From a virus: a DNA stretch of 20,452 nt. The position numbers and the translations under genes were made by a program. The notes beneath the pieces were generated by a model that worked only from the letters and a program-made list of their open reading frames with translations, ran no database searches and was not told where the DNA came from. Location: IMG/VR virus record IMGVR_UViG_3300049597_000097, positions 1 to 20,452 of that record. One strand, 5' to 3'. Below are positions 5,104 to 12,749 of this stretch, piece by piece (within the stretch, counting starts at the first letter, position 1; each line of letters begins with the position of its first letter).

Positions 5104-5352
5104 ATGTGGTTAGACATTATTAGACGAACCTTTGCGGTCATCATCTTGAAGGTCACCGGTATCTTTGTCGGTGGAGCTGTCATCGGCCTTGAGGTTATCC
5201 AGGCTGTTGCTATGGCTGCCTTTGCTGGTGTGATTGATGTGGCTCAGGAGCTATCTCGGTCTTACCTTGCAGACGGCAAGATTGACCCAGACGAGCTAAA
5301 CAAGAGCTTTGGCAAGATTGCCGATAAGTCAGGCCCTAGCTCGAAGCCCTAA
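5104..5352 (+). CDS. Small membrane protein with EF-hand-like tail, lysis cassette
   Basis: This 82-residue protein starts at ATG 5104 with an AAAGGA site 7 nt upstream. Residues ~8-46 are hydrophobic and can form two membrane helices (FAVIILKVTGIFVGGAVIGL and QAVAMAAFAGVIDVA). The soluble C-terminus contains LADGKIDPDELNKSFGKIA, a stretch resembling half of an EF-hand loop and following helix, which recurs in membrane proteins near phage lysis genes. It may be a holin, an antiholin or an accessory lysis protein; the sequence alone does not decide. Its last 17 nt overlap the 3' end of the convergent whiB gene, so the lysis and whiB transcripts meet tail to tail with no visible terminator between them. 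Confidence 0.62.
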   Translation: MWLDIIRRTFAVIILKVTGIFVGGAVIGLEVIQAVAMAAFAGVIDVAQELSRSYLADGKIDPDELNKSFGKIADKSGPSSKP

Positions 5353-5611
5353 GCTTTACGCGTTCCTCATAGGTAGTGCCACCCCAGATGCCCTGCATCC
5401 CTGCTGATAGGGCATAGTCAAAGCACCTAAGCCTGACAGGGCAGTCATCACAGACTTCTTTGGCTACCTTGATCATTGACTTACGCATCTCTGGGTCATG
5501 CTCATCCTCTGGGAAAAAGACCTCTGGCACCGAGGCACATTGGACCCCATCATTGTTTCTTATTGCTTCTTGCAACTCAATATATTTGCGTTCAATCTGG
5601 CGTAATGTCAT
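5336..5611 (-). CDS. whiB: WhiB-family iron-sulfur transcription regulator
   Basis: This 91-residue protein is on the minus strand. It has the four WhiB cysteines (C25, C54, C57, C63; the last three in CDDCPVRLRC), FFPE upstream of the CxxC pair, and the signature GIWGGTT at 74-80 followed by YEER. WhiB-like proteins bind a [4Fe-4S] cluster and, where studied, the sigma factor region that reads the -35 element. They occur in Actinobacteria and their phages, which points to the host. It is the only confident minus-strand gene in the window and is divergent from the recombination genes. A TATACT -10 (5625-5630, minus) lies 13 nt from the ATG, so the leader would be very short. It probably regulates host or phage transcription early in infection. 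Confidence 0.93.
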   Translation of the reverse strand: MTLRQIERKYIELQEAIRNNDGVQCASVPEVFFPEDEHDPEMRKSMIKVAKEVCDDCPVRLRCFDYALSAGMQGIWGGTTYEERVKLRASS

Positions 5612-5624
5612 AGGGTAACCCTAG

Positions 5625-5632
5625 AGTATAAA
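5625..5632. promoter_or_regulatory. Overlapping divergent -10 elements between whiB and exonuclease genes
   Basis: The short sequence AGTATAAA reads as TATAAA on the plus strand (5627-5632) and as TATACT on the minus strand (5630-5625). The minus -10 would start whiB transcription only a few bases from its ATG. The plus -10 would start a transcript near 5639-5641, just before the hairpin at 5644. No good TTGACA-like -35 is visible for either direction. Because the hexamers overlap, the two directions should compete for polymerase. This is pattern matching only. Confidence 0.4.
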
Positions 5633-5643
5633 CATCGGAAATA

Positions 5644-5678
5644 GCAAAGCCACGCTGAGAGAGTTAGCGCGGCTTTGC
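5644..5678 (+). promoter_or_regulatory. Strong hairpin in the leader of the exonuclease gene
   Basis: GCAAAGCC at 5644-5651 pairs with GGCTTTGC at 5671-5678. After one A/C mismatch the pairing continues (CGCT with AGCG, then a G-T and an A-T pair) around a 5-nt GAGAG loop. It is followed by purine-rich sequence, not a T-run, so it is unlikely to be a terminator for the plus strand. It lies about 12 nt upstream of the AGAGGG ribosome binding site of the exonuclease gene, so it may be a 5'-end mRNA stabiliser or an operator. Confidence 0.55.
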
Positions 5679-7578: not shown

Positions 7579-7803
7579 GTGATAGCCGAATCCTGCTCTT
7601 GTGGGGCCAAAATAAAGACTGATGATGCTCAGGCAATCAAGCTCGTCCGAGAATGGCGGCGTAGGCATACCTGTATAACCGACAACACCGACAACTCCGA
7701 CATTGTTGAAGCTGTCAATGGTGGAATGGCAGACACCACAATCGCTTTAGGATTCCAACCTGGTGAGATGCCAGCCAAGATTTACGATCCGTTCGATGAC
7801 TAA
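7579..7803 (+). CDS. Small zinc-finger-like protein
   Basis: This 74-residue protein starts at GTG 7579, 16 nt after the previous stop; the ribosome binding site is weak. Near the N-terminus it has CSCGAKIKT (C6, C8) and then WRRRHTC (H30, C32), a compact Cys/His set that could bind one zinc ion. This 'C-x-CGA-x-I ... W-x-x-x-H-x-C' arrangement is seen in small early proteins of actinophages. The C-terminal half (GGMADTTIALGFQPGEMPAK) has no recognisable motif. The stop overlaps the next gene's start by 8 nt (ATGACTAA), so the two are coupled. A nucleic-acid-binding role is possible but unproven. Confidence 0.6.
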   Translation: MIAESCSCGAKIKTDDAQAIKLVREWRRRHTCITDNTDNSDIVEAVNGGMADTTIALGFQPGEMPAKIYDPFDD

Positions 7804-8137
7804 GAAACAGTTTCAGAAATACCTAGAGCGTGACCTTGGCTGTTGGCATTGTGGCACTCAAGGCGATGACTTGATACCTCACCACCGGCTCAATCGAGGC
7901 ATGGGTAGTAAGAATCACCTAGCTAGTCAGCCGAGCAACATCATTCCGCTGTGTGCCGAGGCTAACGGCTTACTAGAGTCAAACGCTGGCTTTGCTGAGC
8001 TAGGTCGCAAGATGGGCTGGAAGCTAAGAAACCATGAAACGCCGACTGAAGTGCCTATCTTTGGGCATGGTGGCTGGTGGCTACTAAATGACGACTTTAC
8101 AAAAGACCTGCTGGAATCCGATCCTGAGATGTTTTAG
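7796..8137 (+). CDS. HNH-like endonuclease domain protein
   Basis: I chose ATG 7796 (113 residues), coupled to the previous gene by an 8-nt overlap; an in-frame ATG at 7763 would overlap it by 41 nt. The layout is that of a small HNH protein. It has a zinc pair CWHCG (C16, C19), then IPHHRLNRGMGSK with the histidine pair at 29-30, and then PSNIIPLCAEANGLLES with Asn48, Cys53 and Asn57 where the HNH domain has its central Asn and final Cys/His region. The C-terminus (KLRNHETPTEVPIFGHGGWW) is an extra ~40-residue tail. HNH proteins of this kind act as nicking or homing nucleases in phages. The final histidine is not obvious, so activity is uncertain. Confidence 0.68.
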   Translation: MTKKQFQKYLERDLGCWHCGTQGDDLIPHHRLNRGMGSKNHLASQPSNIIPLCAEANGLLESNAGFAELGRKMGWKLRNHETPTEVPIFGHGGWWLLNDDFTKDLLESDPEMF

Positions 8138-8155: not shown

Positions 8156-8234
8156 GGGGCTGGATTAGACTCGACTATCAGTAAAGCCGATGAGGAATCT
8201 GACTAGGACTCGGGTGCAACTCCCGACAGCTCCA
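8156..8234 (+). ncRNA. Miniature tmRNA-like RNA (tRNA-like domain)
   Basis: A 7-bp acceptor stem (GGGGCTG 8156-8162 with CAGCTCC 8227-8233, G3-T70 wobble) ends in A8234. The D-loop region holds GACTCGAC (8168-8175), close to the tmRNA consensus GGATTCGAC. A P2-like stem pairs CTATCAG (8175-8181) with CTGA-C-TAG (8199-8206, one bulge) around a 17-nt loop. GGAC precedes a 5-bp T stem, TCGGG/CCCGA, with a TGCAACT loop. This reproduces the tRNA-like domain of tmRNA almost base for base, but there is no canonical 7-nt anticodon loop and the ~250-nt messenger and pseudoknot region is absent. CCA is not directly encoded (A, then CGCCA). A GCC-start, TAG-end frame (8186-8206) lies in the loop and stem. 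The family link is from memory of tmRNA consensus; function is unknown. Confidence 0.62.
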
Positions 8235-8242
8235 CGCCAGGA

Positions 8243-8370
8243 TACACTTCTGGTGCTAGTGTAAAGACATAACTGAATAAAAAGATGCCGCCTAAGGATC
8301 GGAACCCTTAGACGGCGTTGATAACCAACAATCATGCTGTTGGCATCATTACCAAGTGTAGTGTGCCAAC
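8243..8370 (+). promoter_or_regulatory. Hairpin-rich leader downstream of the tmRNA-like RNA
   Basis: Several hairpins fill this stretch. TACACT/AGTGTA lies at 8243-8263. A strong stem at 8287-8316 pairs GCCGCCTAAGG with CCTTAGACGGC, with one mismatch. Then come two mutually exclusive stems: CCAACA/TGTTGG (8325-8343), and GTTGGCA/TGCCAAC (8339-8345 with 8364-8370). None is followed by a T-run. The last ends 7 nt before the AGGAAGG ribosome binding site of the gene at 8392, so alternative folding could affect its translation. No protein-coding gene is supportable here. Confidence 0.45.
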
Positions 8371-8391
8371 CCGAATAGGAAGGCACATTTA

Positions 8392-8589
8392 GTGTTTAAC
8401 TGGGACAATCTAACGCTGGCAGAGATTCTGCCTTATTACGCAAACAACATATTCATGGCTGAGATGGACTACAAGGCTATGGGTCTCGATGCTGGTCAAT
8501 GGGCGATGCTAGTCAAGCAAGCCTTTGACACCAAAGTAATCAACGCAACTGTATTGATGGTTATGCTCGACAGGGCTAGTGTCGCATGA
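8392..8589 (+). CDS. Small protein of unknown function, upstream of initiator
   Basis: This 65-residue protein starts at GTG 8392 with a strong AGGAAGG ribosome binding site 8 nt upstream. The sequence (MFNWDNLTLAEILPYYANNI, then LDAGQWAMLVKQAFDTK, then ATVLMVMLDRASVA) is mostly helical, rich in Met and aromatic residues, and without cysteines or a clear membrane helix. I do not recognise a family. Its stop overlaps the ATG of the replication initiator (ATGA at 8586-8589), so it is translationally coupled to it, and it is the first gene after the structured leader. A role linked to replication initiation or its control is possible from position alone. Confidence 0.55.
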   Translation: MFNWDNLTLAEILPYYANNIFMAEMDYKAMGLDAGQWAMLVKQAFDTKVINATVLMVMLDRASVA

Positions 8590-9245
8590 GCATCGAAGCC
8601 GTATCGCTCGTACTAAACCAATCCAAAGCAACTGGCAGGGCAAAGCTAGTGCTACTTGGAATTGCTAACCACCTTGGAGATCAGGGTGCTTGGCCTTCCA
8701 TAAGCACATTAGCCAGGTACGCCAATGCCTCAGAGCGTTCGGTCAAGCGTGACATCCAGGAACTTATAAAGCTCGGTGAGCTTCGAGTCGAGCTACAAAA
8801 TGCACCTATAAACAGGCAATACAAAACCAACCTTTACTGGATTACAATTCAGCCAGGGGTGACAGATGGGGCATTAGGGGTGACAACTCAGGTAAGCAGG
8901 GGTGACAGCTCAGGTAAATCAGGGGTGACACCTGTTGGCACGCAAAACATAATATTAACCATCAAAGAACCATCAATGAAACAGGGTGAAAATGACTTTG
9001 ATAAATTCTGGGAGTTCTACCCTAAAAAGCGAGCTAGAGCGGATGCTGAAAAGGCATGGGCTAAGGCAATCAAACGCAAACCAGCTAGGGAGATTATTGA
9101 GCTAGCAAAGGCTTACTCCCAAGGTAAGCTACCGGCAGAGGAATACATACCCAACGGATCTACCTGGCTAAACAACAATCGGTGGGAAGATGTAGATGCT
9201 ACAACTCAGAAGCCAAGCGAGTTCAAGACAGGGGTGTTTTACTAA
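8586..9245 (+). CDS. Winged-helix replication initiator/replisome organiser
   Basis: This 219-residue protein starts at ATG 8586, coupled by ATGA to the gene before. Residues ~15-88 form an HTH_36-type winged helix (KLVLLGIANHLGDQGAWPSI, STLARYANASERSVKRDIQE, LIKLGELRVE). Residues ~90-135 are a flexible Gly/Thr/Ser linker with repeated GVT triplets, encoded by the iterons. Residues ~137-201 carry the block FDKFWEFYPKKRARADAEKA and end YIPNGSTWLNNNRWED, a C-terminal domain common in phage replication proteins that load a helicase. The DnaB-like helicase gene begins at its stop codon (TAATG), as in lambda O-P and many actinophages. It should bind the origin inside its own gene and recruit the helicase. 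The family is established; origin binding here is inferred. Confidence 0.85.
   Translation: MSIEAVSLVLNQSKATGRAKLVLLGIANHLGDQGAWPSISTLARYANASERSVKRDIQELIKLGELRVELQNAPINRQYKTNLYWITIQPGVTDGALGVTTQVSRGDSSGKSGVTPVGTQNIILTIKEPSMKQGENDFDKFWEFYPKKRARADAEKAWAKAIKRKPAREIIELAKAYSQGKLPAEEYIPNGSTWLNNNRWEDVDATTQKPSEFKTGVFY
8855..8930 (+). repeat. Four iterons inside the initiator gene, candidate origin
   Basis: Four exact copies of AGGGGTGACA begin at 8855, 8876, 8898 and 8921, with 21-, 22- and 23-nt spacing, about two helical turns, so they face the same side of the DNA. Copies 2 and 3 extend to AGGGGTGACA-n-CTCAGGTAA. They encode the linker between the two domains of the initiator. An AT-rich stretch follows at about 8943-8990 (including CATAATATTAACC), suitable for unwinding. 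This matches the lambda arrangement of iterons and an AT-rich element within gene O. Confidence 0.7.
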
Positions 9246-10501
9246 TGAGCAACTTCGAGCAACTGGTAATTGGATCAATACTTCTGACCAACGGAACTGC
9301 TATTGATGAACTAACCCTCACACCGGATGACTTTGACAATCTAGCCTGTGGCAAAATCTACGCAACCATGCTGGAGATGAGAACAGCAAGAGAGCCGATT
9401 GATACCTTCACAGTCGGAACTAAGTTGCCACGCTACGCAGCTGACCTGCATGACATGGTTACGGCAACACCAACGGCTGCCTCTGTAAATTACTACGCAA
9501 CCCAAGTCATAGACTTTGCCACTCGCAAGAGAGTCCAGCAAGCCGGAAACTTACTTAGCATCAAATCGCAGGGCGACAACATCAACGAGGTCATTGAGCT
9601 TGCCAGACAAGAGCTAGATCAACTGACCGAAAAGAACCAAGCAACTAAGCCCAGCTATGTTGATGACGAACTGCTGTCATACATGGATGAGCTAGACAAG
9701 CCAAAGCATTACGCAAAGTCACCTTGGGCAAACCTGAACGAGATAATCATGGGATTCAAGCCAGGTGCTCTTTACATAATTGGTGCAAGACCTGGCATTG
9801 GTAAAACTATTGTTGGTTTACAAATTGCTTGGGAGCTATCAAAGTCTGGGGCTGTTTCATTCCACAGCTTAGAGATGAGCCGCACCGAGCTCTATAACAG
9901 AATTATCAGCATGGAAGCCGAGGTTTACATTGGCAACATCAATCAAGGTTCTTTGAGAGATGAGCATTGGATCAAGATTCAAAAGACAAGGCAAGGCTGG
10001 TCAAACCACCGACTAGCGATCTTTGATAAGTCAGGTCAAACACTTCAGCAGATACGAGCCTCAGCAACAAGCATCAAAAAAGAAGGGCAACTCCAAGCCA
10101 TAGTTGTTGACTATCTAGGTTTGATTCAAGACACAATTGCTGGTCGCAAGCGATACGAGATGATCACCGACATCTCCATCGGACTCAAGAACCTAGCTAG
10201 GGATTTGAATGTGCCAGTAATCGCGCTAGCCCAGCTCAACCGAGGCCCAGAGCAACGCAGGGATTCTGAACCCGACCTAGCTGACCTAAGAGATTCTGGT
10301 GGTATCGAGCAGGATGCTGATGTGGTTATCTTGCTACACAGAGTCAAGACCGAGTTCGATGACCCTCAAAAGGAATGGCAAAAGTCAGGGATGATTATGA
10401 AGGTTGCAAAGAATCGGCATGGCAAGATTGGCAACGCAAACTTACTCTTTGAGGGTGAGCTCTCAAGAGTGATTCAACCGCCCAGAAATGATAAAGGCTA
10501 A
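9245..10501 (+). CDS. dnaB: DnaB-type replicative helicase
   Basis: I chose ATG 9245, which overlaps the previous stop by one base (TAATG); a longer frame from 9182 would overlap the initiator and has a non-homologous start. This gives 418 residues. The N-terminal helical domain (about 1-125, starting MSNFEQLVIGSILL) is followed by a linker and the RecA-like domain: Walker A GARPGIGKT at 180-188, FHSLEMS at 207-213, Walker B IVVDYLGLI, and LAQLNRG with DLRDSGGIEQDADVVILLHR near the C-terminus. It is a ring helicase that unwinds the replication fork in the cytoplasm, loaded by the initiator encoded immediately upstream. All main motifs are intact. The length is a little short of bacterial DnaB (about 450-470), as usual for phage versions. 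Confidence 0.93.
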   Translation: MSNFEQLVIGSILLTNGTAIDELTLTPDDFDNLACGKIYATMLEMRTAREPIDTFTVGTKLPRYAADLHDMVTATPTAASVNYYATQVIDFATRKRVQQAGNLLSIKSQGDNINEVIELARQELDQLTEKNQATKPSYVDDELLSYMDELDKPKHYAKSPWANLNEIIMGFKPGALYIIGARPGIGKTIVGLQIAWELSKSGAVSFHSLEMSRTELYNRIISMEAEVYIGNINQGSLRDEHWIKIQKTRQGWSNHRLAIFDKSGQTLQQIRASATSIKKEGQLQAIVVDYLGLIQDTIAGRKRYEMITDISIGLKNLARDLNVPVIALAQLNRGPEQRRDSEPDLADLRDSGGIEQDADVVILLHRVKTEFDDPQKEWQKSGMIMKVAKNRHGKIGNANLLFEGELSRVIQPPRNDKG

Positions 10502-11805: not shown

Positions 11806-12111
11806 ATGCAGTATCTAAAGTCACCAACAGAGTCAATCTTTTATGACGCTTACGCAATCGCTGATGCGATTGTTTACCAAGAAGACCAAGAAACTCGGAT
11901 GCTCCTAGCAATCAAGCGCGAGGGCCTTATGAGCAACAAAGTTGCTGCACTATCTGATGACATCACTCGACTATCGGTTCTTATTCAGGATCGCATAACA
12001 GCATTTGAAAACAAGTACGGAGACACCAGCCCTTACAAATGGCACCAGCACCTTGCCGACCACAAACGCTGTGACAGGGTTTTGGCAAAGGTAGAACAGT
12101 GGGCAAGCTAA
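11806..12111 (+). CDS. Hypothetical helical protein, first gene of modification operon
   Basis: This 101-residue protein starts at ATG 11806 with AAGAGG about 6 nt upstream, first after the promoter region. The sequence is mostly helical (FYDAYAIADAIVYQEDQETR, KVAALSDDITRLSVLIQDRI, HQHLADHKRCDRVLAKVEQW) with no membrane helix and a single cysteine. I do not recognise a family. It overlaps the Mom-like gene by 13 nt, so the two are probably co-translated. In phage Mu the mom gene is preceded by com, a zinc-finger translational activator, but this protein lacks the cysteines of Com, so it is not an obvious equivalent. Confidence 0.6.
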   Translation: MQYLKSPTESIFYDAYAIADAIVYQEDQETRMLLAIKREGLMSNKVAALSDDITRLSVLIQDRITAFENKYGDTSPYKWHQHLADHKRCDRVLAKVEQWAS

Positions 12112-12749
12112 CTGATGATTATTACATTGACCAAATTGATTACAGGACAGCTATGCAAGTCGTTATCGAGCATCACTACTTGCACCGAAAAGCACCTTGC
12201 TCCTGGGCCTTTGGGTTGTTTGAAGTGATGACTCAAAGCCTGGTTGGAGTAGTCATCTATGGTGTCCCAGCTTCATCAACATTGCTCAAGGGAATCTGTG
12301 GCCCTGACGAGGCACAGAATGTCTATGAGTTGACTCGCTTATGGATTGACGATGCCGTACCTAAGAATGGTGAGAGCTTTTTGGTAGGGAACACGCTTGG
12401 CAAAGTCAATCGGGAAATTATCGTTTCTTATGCCGACACTTCCCAAAATCATGTTGGTGTTATTTATCAAGCTGCCAACTTTCTTTACACAGGATTGTCA
12501 AGCAAGTTTAGAGATCCAAAAGTCAAAGGCTTAGAGGGGCAGCACCATGCCACCTATGCCAACGGACTAACCAACGCACAAGTAAAAGAGAAGTTTGGCG
12601 ACAATGTTTATTGGGTAGATCGCCCAAGAAAACATAGATACATATTCATCAATGCAAAAGGCAAAAGAAAGAAAGAGCTGCTTGCCAAGATGAGATACAA
12701 AATACTGCCTTATCCCAAGGCTACAAAACAAGAAGGAGAAACAGCATGA
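12099..12749 (+). CDS. mom: Mom-like DNA adenine modification protein (GNAT-related)
   Basis: This 216-residue protein starts at GTG 12099 with AAAGG about 7 nt upstream. Conserved blocks of the phage Mom-like family are visible: VIEHHYLHRKAP at 22-33, LVGVVIYGVPASS at 48-60, VYELTRLWIDD at 75-85, and IVSYADTSQNHVGVIYQAA at 108-126 followed by NFLYTGLS. KHRYIF lies at 178-183, and the tail is strongly basic (KGKRKKELLAKM). Mu Mom converts adenines in DNA to a carbamoylmethyl form, protecting phage DNA from restriction; relatives occur in many tailed phages. It would act on phage DNA before packaging. The family call is good; the exact modification made here is unknown. The stop overlaps the next ATG (ATGA). 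Confidence 0.75.
   Translation: MGKLTDDYYIDQIDYRTAMQVVIEHHYLHRKAPCSWAFGLFEVMTQSLVGVVIYGVPASSTLLKGICGPDEAQNVYELTRLWIDDAVPKNGESFLVGNTLGKVNREIIVSYADTSQNHVGVIYQAANFLYTGLSSKFRDPKVKGLEGQHHATYANGLTNAQVKEKFGDNVYWVDRPRKHRYIFINAKGKRKKELLAKMRYKILPYPKATKQEGETA

Follow-up and report, generated by a model that had tools for sequence, protein, structure and literature searches.

The window, that is, the whole stretch of DNA analysed here, is an IMG/VR record of 20,452 bases. Its genes include those for a terminase, a DnaB helicase, a RecE-like exonuclease and WhiB, and we infer that the record belongs to an actinophage with an aquatic actinobacterial host. The WhiB transcription factor gene, located at 5336-5611 on the minus strand (PF02467), supports an actinobacterial host. 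At the DNA level the phage is unrelated to known records; the best match of its terminase is that of Pontimonas phage phiPsal1, with 55% identity. A protein of the Mom family, to which the enzyme for DNA adenine modification (momylation) in phage Mu belongs, is encoded at 12099-12749 (PF25680, E 1.3e-41).

A mini-tmRNA gene is located at 8156-8234 on the plus strand, as identified with Rfam model RF00023, our covariance model R1 and 136 homologous places. It begins after a gap of 18 nt behind an HNH endonuclease gene (7799-8137, +; phrog_740, E 7.9e-20), with which it is likely to share a transcription unit. Downstream are the genes for a replication initiator and a DnaB-like helicase (8586-10501, +; phrog_270, E 3.4e-31, and phrog_19, E 2.6e-89), which form the early or replication region.

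Positions 8238-8391 are the leader of a small ORF that starts at 8392. A hairpin in this leader (8287-8316) is variable with compensating changes, and an A-run on its 5′ side makes it resemble a terminator of the minus strand. Overlapping complementary segments (CCAACA/TGTTGG, GTTGGCA/TGCCAAC and GTGCC/GGCAC) lie around AGGAAGG and allow mutually exclusive pairings of an attenuator- or riboswitch-like kind. Eight of 36 predicted pairs in the leader were double-changed, and the leader had no Rfam match. Three relatives (L007, L009 and L012) have neither the leader nor the small ORF.

Structure and identification of the mini-tmRNA gene

The gene is 79 nt long and corresponds to the tRNA-like domain (TLD) of tmRNA without the messenger part. 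The 5′ strand of the acceptor stem, GGGGCTG (8156-8162, including G3), pairs at 7/7 positions with the 3′ strand CAGCTCC (8227-8233, with U70 at 8231). It is followed by GATTAGA and CTCGA, which make up the D-loop region GATTAGACTCGA (8163-8174) with the tmRNA signature TCGA(C); TCGAC was invariant in alignment A1. The D-loop stretch GACTCGAC is found at 8168-8175, and A8167 would be position 18 by analogy with tRNA. Next comes the P2 hairpin, CTATCAG TAAAGCCGATGAGGAAT CTGA(C)TAG. Its 5′ strand CTATCAG (8175-8181) pairs with the 3′ strand CTGA-C-TAG (8199-8206), leaving C8203 bulged, and this stem is supported by pairing in homologues and by covariation. The apical part TAAAGCCGATGAGGAAT (8182-8198), with a short hairpin CC-GATGA-GG, replaces the messenger and pseudoknot domain. 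After P2, GAC (GGAC at 8206-8209) leads into the T arm TCGGG-TGCAACT-CCCGA (8210-8226), with stem strands 8210-8214 and 8222-8226 and a G in the loop TGCAACT where U55 is usual. The 3′ acceptor strand and a discriminator A at 8234 complete the molecule. CCA is not encoded at the 3′ end, where ACGC is found instead, and would have to be added post-transcriptionally.

An earlier note on this DNA, made from the letters alone, had proposed that a phage encodes a miniature RNA resembling tmRNA. The RF00023 match, the homologues, their covariation and the R1 match bear this out. The acceptor GGGGCTG/CAGCTCC with G3-T70, the tmRNA D-loop (GACTCGAC), GGAC and the T stem TCGGG/CCCGA that it had read were all found in place. 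The 3′ end, which it had set at 8239, has to be moved, as the RNA ends at A8234. The note had also estimated that about 20 nt replace the messenger region. The messenger is indeed gone; however, TCGA and GAC are separated by 32 nt (8175-8206), of which about 17 nt are loop and the rest is the P2 stem with 7 pairs and one bulged C. Its observation that there is no 7-nt anticodon loop holds, since in place of an anticodon arm the window element has the P2 stem with an irregular 17-nt loop and ARAGORN is silent on it. The T loop TGCAACT with its G had gone unremarked in the note.

Pseudoknots PK1-PK4 are absent from the element, with 318 mid-model positions missing in the RF00023 alignment, and no messenger-like domain with a resume codon and a tag reading frame was found in it. 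A candidate tag peptide read from the loop (GCC GAT GAG GAA TCT GAC TAG, ADEESD-stop) was rejected, the frame being broken in L004, L005 and L019.

In the Rfam cmscan, RF00023 matched 8156-8237 end to end with 34.9 bits (E 7.2e-11), which is below the RF00023 gathering score of 47 bits; that cut-off was reached by 37 of 43 sampled mini-carrying records. ARAGORN called no gene on the element. Folding of the single strand was unremarkable (z -0.84) and single-sequence folding was uninformative, so the case for the window element rests on homology and covariation. True tRNAs in MAGs score up to about 40 bits with RF00023, and that score by itself was therefore not accepted as proof. Covariance model R1 was built from 21 phage minis with the window's own family left out. 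It found the window element with 55.9 bits (E 8.3e-12) as its sole match in the window. In the same search of loci, R1 gave 59-87 bits to the minis of named phages, 23-34 bits to full tmRNAs and at most 27.5 bits to tRNAs, and on whole MAGs non-mini matches reached up to 38.9 bits.

On these sequence grounds a tRNA identity is excluded by the clan-best tmRNA call, the TCGAC and GGAC signature and the R1 score, and the lack of both an ARAGORN call and a 7-nt anticodon loop led us to reject it as well. We also discarded a permuted tmRNA in two pieces, of which the element would be the acceptor half, since its 5′ half precedes its 3′ half as usual and a closed P2 links the two. Judged by its sequence features, the element fits an unpermuted, TLD-only phage tmRNA gene of the kind described for phage DS6A.

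Covariation and conserved positions

The homologue set comprised 136 places, which represent 87 distinct sequences. The acceptor was fully paired in 135 of the 136 places and the T stem was complete (5/5) in all 87 sequences. The two outer T-stem pairs had been left free in the search pattern. At the pattern-free positions, acceptor pairs 5 and 6 were formed in 99% of the 87 sequences and T1 and T2 in 100%, compared with shuffled means of about 39-56%, and 4-6 standard pair types occurred per position. T1 and T2 each showed 5 pair types, as the covariation of the T stem expected in the earlier note would require. In P2, to which the same shuffled means and range of pair types apply, positions 2-7 were paired in 99, 95, 91, 91, 83 and 75% of the 87 sequences; positions 1-5 were standard-paired in 91-100%, against 42-55% in shuffled controls at positions 2-5. 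The pairing result was unchanged in the 59 sequences with less than 85% identity.

Because a MAFFT alignment of all 64 minis misplaced 5′ ends, we used anchored positions and a clean subset for the covariation counts. In the clean alignment A3 (21 sequences), 96.3% of cells were paired, compared with 75.5% after shuffling and 41-54% after sliding, and 98 cells were double-changed versus 29 in the control. The acceptor, P2 and T stems thus covary strongly across the 87 distinct sequences. The apical part has the class consensus AAA-n-CCGCAYGCGG, with its helix 92% paired in A3; the window carries the variant AAAGCC-GATGA-GGAA.

G3-U70 is the identity pair of alanyl-tRNA synthetase (AlaRS). It was present in 136/136 places, though the pattern permitted C70, and in Streptomyces phage LuckySocke it was kept while the neighbouring pair 4-69 had changed to U-A. 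The discriminator was A in all 136 places. The invariant G3-U70 and discriminator A argue for natural alanylation of these RNAs, and the phage minis are probably charged with alanine.

A second constrained feature is located at the elbow. The base three before YTCGA was A in 12/12 sequences with G55 in the T loop and in 0/75 others, although these 12 include several close relatives, so that independent events are fewer than the Fisher p-value implies. By analogy with the tRNA elbow, a pair A18/G55 would replace G18/U55. The joint swap was also found in 2/2 full-length phage tmRNAs, and there was no exception among 118. The window element belongs to this A18/G55 subtype.

Distribution and genomic context

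IMG/VR was scanned at several spacer lengths with a pattern consisting of GGGG..G, YTCGAY, GGAC, the T arm and the 3′ strand of the acceptor. A spacer of 15-45 nt gave at least 120 contigs, one of 46-76 nt gave 5 and one of 77-107 nt gave 1, and at least 120 were found with the 275-305 nt spacer of full-length tmRNAs. These counts by size indicate that mini-tmRNAs are a separate size class and not a tail of decay. Only 4 matches were found when the 15-45 nt pattern was applied to 84,980 genomes of bacteria and archaea. One of them (L135) was spurious, lying inside a full tmRNA. The other three are real and located in actinobacterial MAGs, each with its own full tmRNA of different sequence; the mini and the tmRNA of the same MAG differ in the acceptor and T stems. 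One of the three contigs has phage head and RNA-ligase genes, and the other two had no PHROG match.

SmpB was found in 0/43 mini-carrier records, so an SmpB partner would be that of the host. A second, full-length tmRNA was likewise found in 0/43, the other matches being tRNA-sized or partial.

Minis were present in Streptomyces phages LuckySocke, BRock, pSt2308 and Alone3 (L140 3501-3581, L141 3492-3572, L156 801-881 and L157 787-866) and in Stenotrophomonas virus Jojan60 (L148 1493-1575), in each case without an annotated RNA feature and in or beside a tRNA cluster. phiPsal1 (MG835450, L162) has an unannotated mini at 5569-5650 (RF00023, 54.6 bits; R1, 79.2 bits). Its apex has the CC..GG form seen in the window, but it precedes the major capsid gene, whereas the window element sits beside the HNH and RepO genes.

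Several other tmRNA-like RNAs were observed in the search. SM1, XacN1, DLP_6, BUCT628, CcrSC and other blastn matches considered as minis were set aside as permuted two-piece tmRNAs. Tunturiibacter phage Tunturi_4 (L152) also has a permuted tmRNA (79.2 bits), directly beside a gene annotated as a release factor with an RF-1 domain (418-765 and 770-1179 for the pair). The RF-1 domain gene is possibly ArfB-like, in which case two ribosome-rescue functions would adjoin in one phage. A second structural class may be formed by tmRNA-like RNAs of 86-123 nt, mini or intermediate in size, whose apical parts differ (L014 1903-1992, L010 925-1021, L030 6256-6349 and L130-L134); L014 has a GAAA-capped hairpin at its apex, and CCA is encoded in some of this group. 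The long tmRNAs that ARAGORN reported at L078 5905-6228 (-) and L141 3476-4101 (+), with unusual tag peptides, are spurious, as they join a mini to unrelated sequence upstream or downstream of it. Minis may therefore be wrongly annotated by automated tools.

In the window's family the sequence of the element is kept while its neighbours vary between relatives. The mini is located just after another tRNA-like 3′ end in L019, behind another gene in L004, L005 and L021, and directly before the replication gene in L007, L009 and L012. In this respect the element behaves like a mobile RNA gene that acts in trans. The position of the window-family mini between the HNH gene and the replication genes would also suit a cis-acting tRNA-like leader that regulates the latter. 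We consider such a leader very unlikely, given the other neighbours in L019, L004/L005 and phiPsal1, the tRNA clusters of the Streptomyces phages, and the processing-type ends and alanine identity pair, which fit a free RNA.

The earlier note had also offered an attachment site, or a remnant of host ssrA, as its alternative. Phages commonly use ssrA as an attachment site, and prophages contain fragments of it (PMC9004378, PMC11915505), so that an attachment site or an inert copy acquired by recombination has to be weighed. Both ends of the element are kept, however, in normal order around a closed P2, and every free helix position covaries. That note had remarked that no integrase is visible, and a tyrosine integrase was not found in the window. 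Among 44 carrier records, tyrosine integrases were found in 4 and serine recombinases in 1, and none adjoined the mini at the coordinates listed. The element is nearly absent from bacterial genomes (4/84,980), the minis of the MAGs are not copies of the acceptor and T stems of the resident tmRNA, and the element is at different loci in relatives. Furthermore, phiPsal1 is described as lytic and non-integrating, and its host, Pontimonas salivibrio, has a regular tmRNA (PMC6106888). This origin is thus disfavoured to the point of being extremely unlikely.

Standard tRNA and tmRNA finders miss this class, which isolated Streptomyces, Pontimonas and Stenotrophomonas phages also carry.

Proposed function and comparison with known systems

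The conserved TLD parts are those for tRNA-like processing, alanylation and binding of EF-Tu and SmpB, and the lost tmRNA parts are those for resuming translation and tagging. By analogy, the most likely function, which we hold at somewhat better than even, is that of a dominant-negative decoy of host trans-translation during infection. The window element would be transcribed with the early replication genes, and its transcript processed and completed with CCA in the manner of tRNA. Host AlaRS would charge it with alanine through G3-U70, host SmpB and EF-Tu would bind it, and it would then compete with host tmRNA or take its place in stalled ribosomes. With no messenger part it could direct neither tagging nor proteolysis and would thereby act as a decoy.

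A TLD-only ssrA/tmRNA is known from Mycobacterium phage DS6A (Mao 2009, as cited in PMC4131195 and PMC11915505). According to the same accounts, a DS6A-like TLD-only molecule is a strong inhibitor of tmRNA in E. coli whether or not it can be charged, and titration of SmpB may be the reason (Mao 2009, via PMC4131195). The decoy against trans-translation that the earlier note had suggested thus has an experimental precedent in the literature for RNA of the DS6A type. That the inhibition is irrespective of chargeability, together with the conservation of every element of the TLD fold, would suit a pure titration of SmpB (or of EF-Tu or AlaRS) by a charged or uncharged decoy that does not enter the ribosome. 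Such titration seems improbable to us, as G3-U70 is absolute despite the allowed C70, even beside the changed pair 4-69 of LuckySocke. With inhibition independent of charging in the published account and yet an invariant charging pair in the phage RNAs, entry into the A site or rescue would fit better than pure titration.

The main rival to the decoy is rescue without a tag, in which an alanylated mini with SmpB would take over the nascent chain from a stalled ribosome and drop off; ribosomes programmed by the phage would be freed and phage proteins left unmarked for proteolysis, as has been proposed for mitochondrial tmRNAs that lack a tag. The invariant G3-U70 implies that charging matters and suggests more than passive titration, and in several large phages the minis lie among translation-supporting genes in tRNA clusters. 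Mitochondrial tmRNAs without a tag frame have been conserved alongside SmpB and are believed to assist ribosome rescue (PMC11915505), so that 'inhibitor' is not the sole reading. On the other hand, the DS6A-like TLD inhibits tmRNA in E. coli by the account in PMC4131195, and no known step ejects a peptidyl-TLD. We regard rescue without a tag as rather unlikely.

More broadly, the phage minis probably jam or bypass the rescue-and-degrade pathway of the host during infection. A more specific proposition, to which we give slightly less than an even chance, is that phages of many bacterial groups have in common alanine-charged mini-tmRNAs of about 72-80 nt, which gain access to stalled ribosomes together with host SmpB as active substrates and re-route protein quality control in lytic infection. 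Selection on charging, as indicated by the invariant G3-U70, points to active substrates, and under this proposition the minis would be tag-free rescue catalysts or chain-terminating blockers and not passive sponges for SmpB.

The kind of molecule is already known, from the TLD-only tmRNA of DS6A and from tag-less organellar tmRNAs. What appears to be new is how widespread it is (at least 120 viral contigs, and several phages available as isolates), along with the evidence of covariation, the identity pair that never varies, the swap at the elbow and the apical hairpin shared across the class. Our literature search found no paper on a wider mini-tmRNA class; papers beyond that search may exist. 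The TLD-only phage tmRNA accordingly turns from a single curiosity (DS6A) into a recurrent, structurally constrained class of phage genes. If trans-translation is blocked or diverted by these RNAs, ribosome rescue would be a direct arena of conflict between phage and host, and nature would have provided, in the mini, a small inhibitor of a pathway that is under study as a target for antibiotics (PMC8778911, PMC10653918).

Compared with known systems, the window element resembles DS6A in being a phage tmRNA gene of little more than a TLD, a likeness drawn from description and not from sequence; it differs from that description in its subfamily, with the putative A18/G55 elbow and the CC-GATGA-GG apex. 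With one-piece tmRNA (RF00023) it shares the acceptor with G3-U70, the TCGAC D-loop, GGAC, the T arm and the start of P2, but it has no tag frame and no pseudoknots and measures 79 nt instead of about 330-400. Tag-less mitochondrial tmRNA (RF02544) and the plastid tmRNA of about 65 bp of Mallomonadaceae have likewise lost the messenger part and kept the TLD (PMC11915505); these are organellar, and the mitochondrial form is usually permuted in two pieces, whereas the window element is viral and unpermuted. Two-piece permuted phage tmRNAs (Melnitz, PMC9004378; SM1, XacN1, DLP_6) are likewise encoded by phages, but they keep a coding piece in permuted order (RF04321), and the window element has neither. 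Finally, it is like phage tRNA genes in its size, its acceptor and T arm and, in some carriers, its location in tRNA clusters, and unlike them in having a tmRNA-type D-loop, no anticodon arm and no ARAGORN call.
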